From Burkholderiaceae bacterium (lineage in GTDB: Bacteria; Pseudomonadota; Gammaproteobacteria; Burkholderiales; Burkholderiaceae_D): DNA of 33,282 nt. The stretch lies in the NCBI GenBank assembly GCA_023653025.1, contig JAMNXS010000031.1:1-33282 (forward strand). The letters are read 5' to 3'. The position numbers and the translations under genes are program-made. Below the pieces are notes generated by a model. The model was given only the letters and a program-made list of their open reading frames with translations. It was not told the DNA's origin and ran no database searches. Of this stretch, positions 25,074 to 29,381 are shown piece after piece; the first letter of the stretch is position 1; each line of letters opens with the position of its first letter.

Positions 25074-25096
25074 TTCCCGACTGCCGCAGTCGGGAA
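25074..25096. repeat. Perfect 10-bp inverted repeat, dRS3-like
   Basis: TTCCCGACTG (25074-25083) and CAGTCGGGAA (25087-25096) around CCG. The outer ATTCCC...GGGAA frame resembles the small dispersed ATTCCC-N8-GGGAAT class of repeats known in Neisseria and other betaproteobacteria. A second stem, TTGCCGG/CCGGCAA (25111-25117 with 25125-25131), follows. Confidence 0.5.
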
Positions 25097-25172
25097 ATTA
25101 GACCGCAGTTTTGCCGGAATTGTCCCGGCAAAGCCGCACGGTCGGACTTTTATCCGAGGGAGCGCAAAGGGG

Positions 25173-25213: not shown

Positions 25214-25600
25214 ATGAATTTCCGCTCGTCTTCCCGGTTCCCGCTCGCCGCGCTGCTGCTGTTCGCCCTGCTGATGCAGGCGCTGCTGCCGGCGTGGGCG
25301 GCTGCGCGCACGGCGTCGCCGGCGCGCTGGATCGAGGTCTGCTCGGTGTCCGGCCTGCAGCGGATACAGGCCGACCCGGCGCAGGACCCGGTGCAGGGCA
25401 AGGCGCAGAAAACGGCGGCGCATGCCGGCGCCGACCACTGTGCGCTGTGCGTTGCCTCGGGCGCCGTTCCCCGGTTTGATGTCACCCCGCATCTTCGCGC
25501 CGGTCTCTCCGACGCGTCGCCGGCAGTTGTTCCCGGCCTTACCTTCATCGTCTTCCCCGGACACGCGCTCCATTCGCGCGCACCGCCCCCATTCTCCTGA
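25214..25600 (+). CDS. cruR: DUF2946 copper-sensing leader protein (CruR/BP2923 type)
   Basis: A 128-aa DUF2946-family protein with one N-terminal hydrophobic helix (about 9-30), the family motif WIEVCSVSG (Cys43) and a CxxC in DHCALC (Cys76, Cys79). The C-terminus is RAPPPFS, with RAPP at residues 122-125 (25577-25588). In Bordetella pertussis a DUF2946 protein with CxxC and a C-terminal RAPP heads a TonB-receptor operon and acts as a regulatory uORF. There the ribosome arrests on RAPP without copper; copper bound to the nascent CxxC relieves the arrest and Rho then stops transcription before the receptor gene (established for bp2923; the symbol cruR is from memory). Motifs, order and spacing here match, so the same role is inferred. 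No ribosome site is visible at the start. Confidence 0.85.
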   Translation: MNFRSSSRFPLAALLLFALLMQALLPAWAAARTASPARWIEVCSVSGLQRIQADPAQDPVQGKAQKTAAHAGADHCALCVASGAVPRFDVTPHLRAGLSDASPAVVPGLTFIVFPGHALHSRAPPPFS

Positions 25601-25661
25601 CGTCAAGACCCGTTTTCCGCACCGGCCTACGCTAGCAGGCCGGGCTGACTGCTTTCAGGAG
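25594..25661 (+). promoter_or_regulatory. Anti-Shine-Dalgarno / Shine-Dalgarno switch between leader and receptor
   Basis: CTCCTGA (25594-25600), which includes the leader's stop codon, is perfectly complementary to TCAGGAG (25655-25661), which contains the receptor's ribosome site. Between them CCGGCCT (25622-25628) pairs with AGGCCGG (25637-25643). The first part of the gap (25601-25628) is C-rich and poor in G, as a Rho loading site would be. A ribosome halted on the RAPP codons would cover the left strand of the long helix and expose the receptor's start site. The pairing is seen in the sequence; the switch is inference. Confidence 0.55.
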
Positions 25662-25667
25662 TATTAC

Positions 25668-27770
25668 ATGCGTTATTCGCTACCGCGCGCGCTCGCGGCT
25701 GCGGCCATGGCCATTGCCGACGCGGCAATGGCCGACAACGGGGCACTGCCCGCGGTGACGGTCACCGCCACCCGCGAGCAGGTGCCGCTGTCTGAAACCC
25801 CGTCGTCGGTCGGCATCATCGGCCGCGACGCCATCGAACTCGTGCGCCCGGCGCATCCGCAGCAGCTGCTTGGCCAGATTCCGGGCGTGGCCATCGGCGT
25901 CACCAACGGCGAAGGCCACACCACGGCGATCCGGCAGGGCTTCACCACCAGCCCGCTCTACCTGTTCCTCGAGGACGGCATACCGATCCGCGCGACCGGC
26001 AACTTCAACCACAATGCGCTGTACGAACTGAACCTGCCCTCGGCCGGCGGCGTCGAGGTGGTGCGCGGCATCGGCTCGGCCTTGTACGGATCGGATGCGA
26101 TCGGCGGCATCGTCAATGTCCTCACGCGCACGCCGCGCGAATCGCGCGGCGCCGACCTGTCGCTGGAGGCGGGCAGCTTCGGCTGGGGCCGGCTGCTCGG
26201 CGGTCTCGACAGCGGGCGCATCGGCCAGAGTGCGGTGCGCGCCGACCTCAATCTCACGCACACCGACGGCTGGCGCGAGCGCACCGCCTATGACCGACAG
26301 AGCGTGAACCTGCGCTGGGATTACGAGCGCGACAACAGCACGGTTATCAAGACCATTTTCGGCGCGACGCATATCGACCAGCAGACCGGCGCCAACTCGC
26401 CGCTGCCACTGGACTTCTACCTGAACAGCCCGACCGTCAACCTGCGCTCGCCGGCCTACCGCATCGTCGATGCGCTGCGGCTGTCGTCGAATATCGAGAC
26501 CGATCTCGGGCGTGGGCAATTGCTGAGCATCACGCCGTATTTCCGCGACAACCGGATGGAGCTCAACGGCAGCTTCAACTTCTCGTGTACCAACGCCGGC
26601 GTCTGCACCGGCCGGATCGAGAACACCGCAGTGCAGTCGTTCGGGCTGATGCTGAAATACCGGAAGAACCTCGACGACGCGCTGCGCACGCGCGTGATCG
26701 CCGGCCTCGACCTCGACACCAGCCCCAGCAGCCGCAGTGAGGACAGGATCGACCTGGCCTCGACCGGCAGCGGCGCGGCGCGCAACTTCACCTCGTACCA
26801 GGTGAACGGCAGGATCTACGACTACAAGGTCAACTATCAGAGTGTCGCGCCTTACACCCATCTCGAGACCTCGCCCTCCGAACGGCTGCGCGTCACGGCC
26901 GGTCTGCGCCTTGACCTGGCACGCTACGCGATCGACAACCAGCTAACCGGCAACGCCGGCGGCTTCTTCCAGCTGGCCGATACGTCGCGCAGTTTCGAGC
27001 GGCTGAGCCCCAAGCTCGGCCTCACCTATGCGCTGGGCGCCAGCGCGCATATGTTCGCGTCTTATAACCAGGGCTTTCGCACGCCGTCGGAGAACCAGCT
27101 GTTCCGCTCTGGCGGAACGACGGCTGCCGCGGCCAATGCCGCGCTCAACCTGCGGCCCATACTGGCCGACCAGTTCGAGCTGGGCCTGCGCGGCGTCGCG
27201 CAGGGTTTCAGCTACGAGCTGGTCGCATACCTGCTGAACAAGCGCGACGACCTGCTGTCTCAGCGCGATGCCAGCAATGTCGTGGTGCAGACGAATAACG
27301 GCACGACGCGGCACAAGGGCATCGAGCTCGGTCTCGGCAAGGCGCTGACATCGCAGTGGCGCATCGACGTTGCCGCCGCCTACGCGGATCATCGCTACGT
27401 CGACTGGTCGGGTAGCGGGCAGAGCGGTGCCTTCAATTTCTCCGGAAACTATGTTGAGGCATCGCCGCGCCTGCTGTCGAACTCGCGCCTGACGTGGATA
27501 CCTGCAGCCGGCACGCTGATGCAGCTGGAGTGGGTGCGCATTGGTTCGTATTTTCTGGAGGCAAGCAACCTGCAAGGCAAATACGGCGGGCACGACTTGT
27601 TCAACCTGCGCGCGTCGCAGCGTATCCATGCGCGCTGGACCCTGTTCGCGCGCGTGACCAATCTCGCCGACCGGCGGCATGCCGACAGCGCCTCCTTCGG
27701 CTCTGGCGCCGCGCTGTTCTCGCCGGGCTTGCCGCGCGCCGGCTACATTGGTGTGGAGGGACGATGGTGA
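25668..27770 (+). CDS. TonB-dependent outer-membrane receptor (probable copper uptake, BfrG-like)
   Basis: A 700-aa TonB-dependent transporter. After a signal peptide ending near AMAD comes the TonB-box region and the plug (VTVTATREQVPLSETPSSVGIIG through VEVVRGIGSALYGSDAIGGIVNVLTR). A beta-barrel then continues to a typical end, GYIGVEGRW, with an aromatic last residue. An extracellular-loop candidate holds two cysteines (FSCTNAGVCTG). AGGAG (25657-25661) is 6 nt before ATG 25668. The substrate is not readable from the barrel; copper is inferred from the DUF2946 leader and from the Bordetella operon, where the same gene order is copper-repressed. Its stop overlaps the start of the next gene. 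Confidence 0.88.
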   Translation: MRYSLPRALAAAAMAIADAAMADNGALPAVTVTATREQVPLSETPSSVGIIGRDAIELVRPAHPQQLLGQIPGVAIGVTNGEGHTTAIRQGFTTSPLYLFLEDGIPIRATGNFNHNALYELNLPSAGGVEVVRGIGSALYGSDAIGGIVNVLTRTPRESRGADLSLEAGSFGWGRLLGGLDSGRIGQSAVRADLNLTHTDGWRERTAYDRQSVNLRWDYERDNSTVIKTIFGATHIDQQTGANSPLPLDFYLNSPTVNLRSPAYRIVDALRLSSNIETDLGRGQLLSITPYFRDNRMELNGSFNFSCTNAGVCTGRIENTAVQSFGLMLKYRKNLDDALRTRVIAGLDLDTSPSSRSEDRIDLASTGSGAARNFTSYQVNGRIYDYKVNYQSVAPYTHLETSPSERLRVTAGLRLDLARYAIDNQLTGNAGGFFQLADTSRSFERLSPKLGLTYALGASAHMFASYNQGFRTPSENQLFRSGGTTAAAANAALNLRPILADQFELGLRGVAQGFSYELVAYLLNKRDDLLSQRDASNVVVQTNNGTTRHKGIELGLGKALTSQWRIDVAAAYADHRYVDWSGSGQSGAFNFSGNYVEASPRLLSNSRLTWIPAAGTLMQLEWVRIGSYFLEASNLQGKYGGHDLFNLRASQRIHARWTLFARVTNLADRRHADSASFGSGAALFSPGLPRAGYIGVEGRW

Positions 27771-28939
27771 ACCGACTGCTCAAATTGATCGCTGCCATCG
27801 CGGCGCTGGCCTTCCTGCTGCCGGTGTCGGCGCAGCACGCGGGCCACGGCAAGCCGCAACTGGCATCCAGCGCCGCATTCGCGCCGGACGGCGCGCTGTG
27901 GCTGGTCGGCGTCGAGCGCGGCAAGCTGTTCCTGCAGCGCCGCTCCGACAGCGGCGCGTGGCAGGAGCGGCGCGTGCTCGACCACGGCGACGACCTGGTG
28001 TCGACCAACGGCGACAACCGTCCGAAGCTCGCTTTCGGCCCGCACGGGCGGGTGGCGATCAGCTACACGCGGCCGCTGGCCAAGCCCTACACCGGCGAGA
28101 TCCGTATGCTGCGCTCCGACGACGGCGGAGAGAGCTTTTCGCCGCCGTTCACCGTGCACCAGGACCGGCAGGTCATCACGCACCGCTTCGACTCGATCGT
28201 CTTCGATGCGCGCGGCGATCTGTACACCTTCTGGATCGACAAGCGCGATGCCGAGCGCGCGTGGGCGGCGGCCAACGGCGATCCGGCGGCCTACGAGGGC
28301 GCGGCGATCTACTACAACGTCTCGACCGACGGCGGCAAGAGCTTCGGGCCCGATACCCGGCTGGCCGACTACAGCTGCGAATGCTGCCGTATCGCCGTGG
28401 CCGCCGAGCCGGACGGCGGCGTGGCGCTGCTGTGGCGCCATGTGTTTGCGGGCAGCGTGCGCGACCATGCGTTCTCGGTCGTCGGCACGACCTCGCCCGC
28501 AGCCATCGTGCGCGCCAGCGCCGACCAGTGGGTTTTGAAGGCCTGCCCGCATCACGGCCCCGGCTTGGCGCGCGATGCCAAAGGCGGCTATCACGCGGTC
28601 TGGTTCGGCGACAAGGGCGGCCGCCAGCGCGTGCGCTACGGGCGGCTGGATGCGGCCGGGCGGCCGCAGGGCAAGCCGGTCGAGCTGCCGGACGAGCGCG
28701 CGGAACACGCCGACGTCGCGGCGGCCGGCGCTACCGTGGTGATCGCGTGGCGCAGTTTCGACGGCGAGCGCACGCGGCTGCGCGCATGGGTATCGGGCGA
28801 CGGCGGTCGCCGTTTCGCCTTGCGCGAACTGGGCGCGTCCGCGCTGCAGAATGACCATCCGCGCATGGCGGCGCAAGACGGCCGCATCGCCGTCGTCTGG
28901 AGAACCGAAAATGACGTTCAGGTTCACGATCTGCGCTAG
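27764..28939 (+). CDS. Periplasmic sialidase-like beta-propeller protein with Cys/His clusters
   Basis: A 391-aa protein with a signal peptide (cleavage near PVSA) and a mature N-terminus beginning QHAGHGK. Three Asp-box (BNR) motifs are seen, RSDDGGESF (117-125), STDGGKSF (187-194) and SGDGGRRF (344-351), so a beta-propeller is likely. It has unusual metal-type motifs: CECC at Cys205/207/208 and CPHHGP at Cys261-His263-His264. I see no reason to believe it cuts sialic acid. In the copper-type operon it may receive copper from the receptor in the periplasm (inference). The ATG at 27764 overlaps the receptor stop by 7 nt; GGAGGG (27756-27761) is close. It corresponds in position to the third gene of the Bordetella operon. 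Confidence 0.8.
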   Translation: MVNRLLKLIAAIAALAFLLPVSAQHAGHGKPQLASSAAFAPDGALWLVGVERGKLFLQRRSDSGAWQERRVLDHGDDLVSTNGDNRPKLAFGPHGRVAISYTRPLAKPYTGEIRMLRSDDGGESFSPPFTVHQDRQVITHRFDSIVFDARGDLYTFWIDKRDAERAWAAANGDPAAYEGAAIYYNVSTDGGKSFGPDTRLADYSCECCRIAVAAEPDGGVALLWRHVFAGSVRDHAFSVVGTTSPAAIVRASADQWVLKACPHHGPGLARDAKGGYHAVWFGDKGGRQRVRYGRLDAAGRPQGKPVELPDERAEHADVAAAGATVVIAWRSFDGERTRLRAWVSGDGGRRFALRELGASALQNDHPRMAAQDGRIAVVWRTENDVQVHDLR

Positions 28940-29381
28940 CCTGCTCGCGCTCGCGGCAGGCGGCGGCGCCGCCGCCCCGGCGGCGGTCGAGCCTTTCGAC
29001 AAAAGCAGCTGGCCGGCGCTGCTGGCTCCGGCATCGCGGCCGGCGATCGTGGTCTTCACGTCGGTCGGCTGCACCCATTGTCCGGGAGCGATCAAGCGGC
29101 TTGCCGCGCAGCGGACAGCGGCGAATCCGCGCGTGACACTGGTCGTGGTGTCGATGGACAGCGACGACGATGCGGCGCTGCTGCGCGACCCGCACTACGC
29201 GCCGGCTGACCGGCTGCTCAGCTTCCGCGGGCATCCGCAGGCGCTGCAGTATTCGGTCAATCCGGGCTGGCGCGGAATGACGCCGTATGTGGCCTTCATC
29301 GACGGTAAGGGCGGAGTGCAGTTCGTGCTGGGAGAGCCGAAAGCGAGCGTGTCGGCCGAGTGGTTGAAGGCGGTTCGGTAG
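28911..29381 (+). CDS. Periplasmic thioredoxin-like protein
   Basis: A 156-aa protein with a signal peptide (hydrophobic to about residue 25) and a thioredoxin fold: AIVVFTSVGCTHCPGAIKRL gives the CxxC (Cys54-Thr-His-Cys57), and GMTPYVAFIDGKGGVQ carries the cis-Pro (Pro125). It starts inside the sialidase-like gene (29-nt overlap), with GGAGA at 28899-28903, so it belongs to the same operon. It could keep the cysteine clusters of the neighbour reduced, reduce Cu(II), or bind copper itself in the manner of Sco/TlpA proteins. The CTHC active site is less usual than CPYC or CxPC. The operon appears to end here, before repeat copy C. Confidence 0.85.
   Translation: MTFRFTICASLLALAAGGGAAAPAAVEPFDKSSWPALLAPASRPAIVVFTSVGCTHCPGAIKRLAAQRTAANPRVTLVVVSMDSDDDAALLRDPHYAPADRLLSFRGHPQALQYSVNPGWRGMTPYVAFIDGKGGVQFVLGEPKASVSAEWLKAVR

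Follow-up and report, generated by a model that had tools for sequence, protein, structure and literature searches.

The locus studied here raises the question whether the gap between a small CruR-type leader and the following receptor gene controls translation in addition to transcription. It lies in a stretch of 33,282 nucleotides from a Burkholderiaceae bacterium (contig JAMNXS010000031.1), the whole of which is referred to as the window. For CruR of Bordetella pertussis, arrest of the ribosome at RAPP has been published (PMC12992588). At CruR-bfrG(crtA), Rho-dependent termination over a gap of 162 bp has been described, with the following gene initiated 'de novo', and the published polarity is copper OFF (PMC9426467). 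Roy et al. regarded the CruR gaps as incompatible with translational coupling (PMC9426467), and crtA is also treated in PMC12914433. The first-pass annotation of the window proposed that the stop codon region of the leader masks the Shine-Dalgarno (SD) sequence of the receptor gene by basepairing and that a ribosome stalled on RAPP would release it, in the manner of SecM.

Leader, gap and predicted helix in the window

The features of the locus are compiled in Table 1. With a score of 37.2 bits, the leader lies above the curated cut-off of PF11162 (23.7 bits) and is assigned to DUF2946. It ends in RAPPPFS and combines, as expected for the CruR type, a CXXC motif with a C-terminal RAPP close to the stop codon. 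The first proline of RAPP is located five codons ahead of the stop, a spacing found in 96 of the 128 loci compared below. For CruR, the CXXC motif has been proposed as the copper sensor (PMC9426467), and by analogy CALC of the window leader is a putative copper sensor. None of the 25 NCBIfam matches listed for the receptor, out of 27, reaches its cut-off. The two ORFs 3′ of the receptor (27767-28936 and 28869-29378) are without an NCBIfam match, the former having just weak BNR-repeat matches below the Pfam cut-off. Neither of them is a PepSY_TM gene, the type which comes after more than 75% of crtA genes (PMC12914433). On the 5′ side of the leader, two close inverted repeats were noticed (25074-25096, 11 exact bp around a 1-nt loop; 25105-25137, 13 nt, 85%), possibly a REP-like element or a portion of the leader 5′ region.

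Table 1. Coordinates of features at the leader-receptor locus of the window.
Feature	Position	Strand	Basis and remarks
Leader ORF, 128 aa, DUF2946 (CruR-type)	25214-25600	+	Pfam PF11162, E 5.5e-9; start codon inferred
CALC, CXXC motif of the leader	25439-25450	+	read from sequence
C>G region, coding strand	25440-25647	+	GC skew to -0.43 at 25544-25621; spans leader end and gap
RAPP, putative arrest motif	25577-25588	+	sequence; expected P site 25583-25585, A site 25586-25588
Anti-SD strand CTCCTGA	25594-25600	+	exact complement of 25655-25661; contains leader stop TGA 25598-25600
Inner hairpin, 7 bp with 8-nt loop	25622-25643	+	CCGGCCT 25622-25628 / AGGCCGG 25637-25643
TCAGGAG, receptor SD (AGGAG 25657-25661) and bases pairing with the leader stop	25655-25661	+	sequence
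TonB-dependent receptor, 700 aa	25668-27770	+	Pfam TonB_dep_Rec_b-barrel 7.4e-38, Plug 3.1e-17

Both proposed stems, the 7-bp pairing of CTCCTGA with TCAGGAG and the second stem of 7 bp inside its loop, are exact and were placed correctly. The outer helix grows to nine of ten possible pairs with a single T-T mismatch (25591-25600/25655-25664) and encloses a loop of 54 nt. In a partition function calculation for 25540-25700, the seven outer pairs have probabilities of 0.91-1.00 and the inner hairpin has 0.96-1.00. The sequestration of the SD, as in a SecM-like switch, is predicted from these pair probabilities (0.91-1.00) together with the conserved complementarity described below. A 121-nt fold holds both helices (z -2.21), and 3 of 200 shuffled sequences were at least equally stable.

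How often such a helix arises by chance was estimated in two ways. In 56 ordinary neighbouring gene pairs taken from 20 stretches of 20 kb, a Watson-Crick helix of at least 7 bp linking the stop region to the SD region of the following gene occurred once, and this control set as a whole gave z -1.4. When ends of RAPP-type leaders were swapped onto foreign SD regions, such helices were found in 5.72 of 71 clusters, which is about 1 in 12. A lone 7-bp helix at the window locus is unusual but not decisive and is suggestive only; the decisive evidence against chance comes from relatives which keep the helix with altered strands.

Complementarity of leader ends and SD regions in relatives

DUF2946 was detected in 14 of 21 genus and 248 of 294 family genomes, and in 46 of 120 and 32 of 160 genomes of the order and phylum samples, respectively. 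The receptor served as a second query to reach orthologues. With L001-L008 excluded, the 258 loci yielded 203 RAPP-type leaders with a downstream gene (25 more are without one), 175 of which are unique; leaders closer than 90 nt to the start of the locus were also excluded from this catalogue. Requiring an ATG start, an SD energy of -3 or better and a gap of at least 35 nt removed 47 loci and left 128 of the 175 in 71 clusters. The automatic start calls contain some errors, as in L047 and L083, both of which are kept in the 128-locus test. From the genus comparison L047, L053, L083 and L072 (minus strand) were removed by hand.

The end of each leader (stop -12 to +12) was paired with the SD region (start -20 to -4) of its own locus and with those of other loci. 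The mean duplex energy was -10.01 kcal/mol for matched partners versus -8.32 kcal/mol for permuted ones (sd 0.28), a difference reached in none of 5000 permutations. Over the 71 clusters, the mean Watson-Crick helix measured 5.49 bp for matched and 4.60 bp for swapped partners, and helices of at least 7 bp occurred in 19.8 matched clusters versus the 5.72 given above. The hypothesis arose from genus and family loci, and 38 clusters come solely from the later order and phylum searches. In these later clusters the excess was -10.48 versus -8.31 kcal/mol (sd 0.39; 0 of 5000), and in the 33 clusters with family loci alone it was -9.47 versus -8.33 kcal/mol (P 0.0036). It was seen at gaps of up to 130 nt (41 clusters, -10.75 versus -8.48, 0 of 5000) as well as at longer gaps (30 clusters, -9.01 versus -8.05, P 0.013). 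The excess stays when swaps are limited to clusters of similar GC content (z -5.0), when the window cluster is removed (z -6.0), and among leaders ending otherwise than in TCC-TGA (z -3.6). Lifting the SD and start filter restores all but 6 of the 175 loci (169 loci in 123 clusters) and gave z -7.6. DUF2946 leaders without R[AGS]PP also showed an excess (-8.69 versus -7.52, P 0.018; 18 of 21 usable, five loci skipped), a set which is not a clean negative control because many of its members still end in PP variants.

The position of the signal was resolved by profiles along each partner. Relative to the stop codon, the leader-side excess has its maxima at positions -6 (z -5.8) and 0 (z -6.2). 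On the partner side the maximum lies at position -10 relative to the start codon (z -6.1), with shoulders at -4 (z -4.3) and -16 (z -2.8), and |z| is at most 1.6 beyond this peak. These peaks correspond to the leader stop codon against the SD. Outside -12 to 0, |z| exceeds 2 on the leader side only at -42 to -54. This weaker excess toward the SD (-42, z -3.4; -48, z -2.2; -54, z -2.4) lies about 14 codons before the stop, and the clusters leading it at -42, among them L254, L235, L249, L225, L246 and L238, form 3-6 bp at the stop.

Beyond the fixed TCC/GGA core, eight flanking positions were paired at a frequency of 0.589 versus 0.513 for permuted partners (sd 0.015; 0 of 3000 permutations, 57 groups). 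Singly significant are -6 (P 0.0065), -4 (P 0.006), +3 (P 0.0145) and +4 (P 0.0005), and no significant covariation was obtained in the 57 groups for -5, +1 and +2 taken singly. Of 81 distinct leader ends with a final Ser, 74 encode it by TCC; the share of TCC is 37% among 346 Ser codons just upstream, the baseline being these upstream codons and not C-terminal Ser codons in general.

The variants found among individual loci illustrate this conservation. In the window cluster (six loci), four have CTCC-TGA/TCAGGAG, one of which (L057) is lengthened to 9 bp, L020 has TTCC-TGA with one U-G pair, and L017 has a TAA stop with the helix shifted to CTCTCC/GGAGAG. Since the core helix is near-invariant in the window genus, the evidence rests on the comparison between genera. 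In a neighbouring genus the strands read CTCGTTTAAG/CTTAAACGAG, and all ten columns are paired in L051 and L072 (11 bp in the catalogue). Long helices occur in L027 (13 bp), L115 (11 bp) and L018 (8 bp, TTA standing opposite TAA). Of the 18 rows counted in the 22-locus cluster, 9 show pairing at one of the helix columns, and a single clear double change was found (L082); the anchored column counts omit 4 of the 22 rows of this cluster and 1 of the 6 of the window cluster.

Gaps upstream of orthologous receptors gave a similar picture. Four of 34 gaps (L318, L324, L338, L348) were removed, and the remaining 30 include four repeats of genus loci already in the 71-cluster test (L279, L280, L281, L283). 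In 26 of the 30, pairing between the SD core and the leader end is predicted at P>0.5. L356 carries TGCTCCTGAAC/GTTCAGGAGCA with 11 bp, and L294 has 10 bp. In L310, for which the start call is less certain (SD energy -2.7), both strands have changed together to GACTCTCAG/CTGAGAGTC, forming 9 bp. The interior of 29 orthologous gaps tends to fold on itself more stably than mononucleotide shuffles (mean z -1.74) with differing sequences, and many of these gaps form different hairpins at the position of the inner hairpin. With a loosened motif, 46 of 80 receptor relatives are without a RAPP-type ORF upstream, some of them being clipped by contig edges. L061 (G003) is a receptor orthologue with two TAG codons within the match, and no adjacent RAPP leader was found for it.

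Conservation or covariation of the pairing had been named beforehand as one observation on which the proposal was to stand or fall, and it is borne out by the matched-versus-swapped comparison, the position profiles, the flanking covariation and the orthologous gaps. The strong form of the pairing is predicted for part of the group. The SD core is predicted to pair with the leader end at P>0.5 in 32 of 71 clusters, versus 16 of 71 with a foreign leader tail, and by gap length in 24 of 41 clusters up to 130 nt and 8 of 30 longer ones. Leader-SD pairing in RAPP leaders is not universal, since 39 of the 71 clusters are without strong predicted pairing. Taken together, six loci of the window genus located before another receptor, across gaps of 158-208 nt, are without an excess (+0.25 kcal/mol), L018 excepted, and in genus g18 a helix of at least 7 bp is present in just 4 of 22 usable leaders.

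The type of the downstream gene fails to separate pairing from non-pairing leaders. Of 20 cluster representatives picked for pairing, 15 precede a TonB receptor Plug gene and two a PCu(A)C copper chaperone gene (L115, L227); ten weakly pairing representatives include three Plug, two TonB_C, one PCu(A)C and one PepSY_TM gene. Five RGPP leaders (L372, L374, L376, L383, L386) are located 37-51 nt ahead of a gene of 147 aa and keep, by eye, an 11-bp leader-SD helix with at least one G-U pair, which reads CTTTGCCTGAC/GTCAGGTAAAG in L374 and L376.

Stalled-ribosome model and competing explanations

A published CruR toeprint points to the third and fourth residues of RAPP as those in the P and A sites (PMC12992588). 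On this basis the P site, initially assumed at about 25586, is moved to 25583-25585. With the first base of the P site taken as lying 15 nt behind the leading edge, this edge is near 25598. The leader strand would still be covered as proposed, though over five of its seven bases. When the footprint 25569-25598 was kept unpaired, the predicted cost of SD opening in the segment 25540-25700 fell from 7.12 to 3.36 kcal/mol. Over four modelled segments the cost was 5.63-7.24 kcal/mol for the free RNA and 2.45-3.36 kcal/mol for the stalled state, and it stayed at 6.85-7.56 kcal/mol when a control block (25605-25621) was used. Across the 71 clusters, the stalled footprint freed the SD by 2.06 kcal/mol (sem 0.30), compared with 0.14 kcal/mol (sem 0.15) for a block 24 nt upstream.

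In the mechanism that we propose, the last codons of the leader and its stop would pair with the downstream SD, aided by the hairpin between them. When copper is scarce, a ribosome may halt on RAPP, by analogy with Bordetella CruR. The leading edge of the halted ribosome would hide most of the leader strand, leaving the SD free and the receptor translated. Copper would lift the halt and let the ribosome terminate, after which the helix would form again and mask the SD; the masked, untranslated message would additionally be exposed to Rho. A terminating ribosome would likewise cover the leader strand, so the switch would depend on dwell time.

The possibility of a fortuitous helix has an obvious basis in composition: the leader end is C-rich, with its proline codons and presumed Rho site, SDs are rich in purines, and a degree of pairing is inevitable, as seen from the -8.32 kcal/mol that swapped partners already reach and from their 5.72 of 71 clusters with at least 7 bp. 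However, matched partners exceed swapped ones within GC blocks too, the signal is confined to the stop region (plus -42 to -54) on the leader side and to the SD on the partner side, and long helices are seen with unrelated sequences. We consider an origin by chance or composition extremely improbable. The permutations, the swaps within GC blocks, the position profiles and the control set of ordinary gene pairs all speak for rejecting chance and GC content.

A more serious competitor is control at the level of transcription only, with Rho acting as in Bordetella. The helix would then just shape the gap, acting for instance as a pause site for RNA polymerase or a barrier to Rho, and SD masking would be incidental. 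Rho-dependent termination has indeed been demonstrated for CruR (PMC9426467), and the C>G region of the window is in the same place. Yet the helix partner is the SD itself and not other parts of the gap or the start of the gene, and in L310, with its less certain start call, SD region and leader end have both changed in a matching way. This explanation appears unlikely. The inclusion of the stop codon in the helix and the closure of the 54-nt loop could instead point to a re-initiation device, in which the helix brings the receptor start near the leader stop and the gene is ON upon release of the arrest. The paired element is the SD, however, which would need reopening, and expression at arrest release runs against the published CruR polarity of copper OFF (PMC9426467); such a device is very unlikely.

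A SecM-like translational switch operating beside the published Rho mechanism is in our view the probable function of the leader-receptor gap in the window. The proposal of a translational switch is upheld as far as the helix, the matched complementarity in relatives, its location at the stop codon and the SD, and the modelled release of the SD are concerned, all of which were computed here; its stall and copper steps are carried over from relatives. For the window leader, arrest, copper sensing and polarity would then be those described in the papers on these relatives. The simplest account would be one stalled ribosome with two effects, unmasking of the SD and exclusion of Rho, both of which would turn the gene ON at low copper. 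For the group as a whole, the odds lean slightly toward a general rule: RAPP copper leaders of the order and beyond may encode the anti-SD for the downstream gene within their last codons and stop, their C-terminal nucleotides (Ser TCC, stop TGA) being selected as a strand of an RNA switch, and uptake genes may be doubly controlled by SD unmasking and Rho exclusion. If true, one stalled ribosome would govern both transcription and translation of copper uptake, and a simple sequence rule would be at hand to find such switches.

Relation to known leader peptides

Among the closest described systems, CruR-bfrG(crtA) of B. pertussis shares with the window the DUF2946 leader, CXXC, the C-terminal RAPP and a TonB-dependent receptor as the next gene, as well as the C>G region over leader end and gap, which has been reported at the Bordetella Rho-dependent terminator (PMC9426467). 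It differs in that no SD masking is described for CruR in the consulted parts of PMC9426467, PMC12992588 and PMC12914433. A Bordetella-like CruR locus was sought in genus g18 and none was recognised.

The principle itself is known from export control. In SecM-secA and uDF_RQH_Enterobacterales-secDF2, a ribosome stalled on an arrest peptide opens an SD-masking stem-loop, but protein export is sensed instead of copper, and the proteins belong to other families (PMC10987492). For the arrest peptides ApcA, ApdA and ApdP, an SD-masking hairpin is not predicted according to the consulted part of PMC7897499.

A further close counterpart among copper leaders is CutF-cutO of Rhodobacter capsulatus. It resembles the window in its DUF2946-like leader, its proline-rich C terminus and a gap stem-loop which shields the next SD (PMC9973294, PMC8456105), and a mutated anti-SD uncouples expression from the leader (PMC9973294). 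In contrast, CutF has a CXXXC motif, a gap of 40 bp and a multicopper oxidase downstream, and copper turns expression ON (PMC9973294, PMC8456105). Its authors stated that CutF and CruR are apparently not isofunctional, and they approached the question whether other leaders act alike through gap length rather than complementarity (PMC9973294); a family-wide conservation test of the CutF stem-loop was not found in the consulted part of that paper. The gene types next to the leaders studied here, receptors and, in L115 and L227, PCu(A)C proteins, suggest uptake or delivery genes and a polarity opposite to that of CutF.

In the literature searched, mainly open-access journal articles, no further report of SD masking by RAPP/CruR leaders was found. 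The initial statement that no report is known holds for the RAPP/receptor type, and has to be narrowed to it, as the same principle has been published for the DUF2946 leader of CutF-cutO (PMC9973294). The kind of switch is known from a few other leaders; its spread in this group looks new. Should the conserved SD-masking helix act as proposed, CruR (copper OFF) and CutF (copper ON) would represent two settings of a single device.
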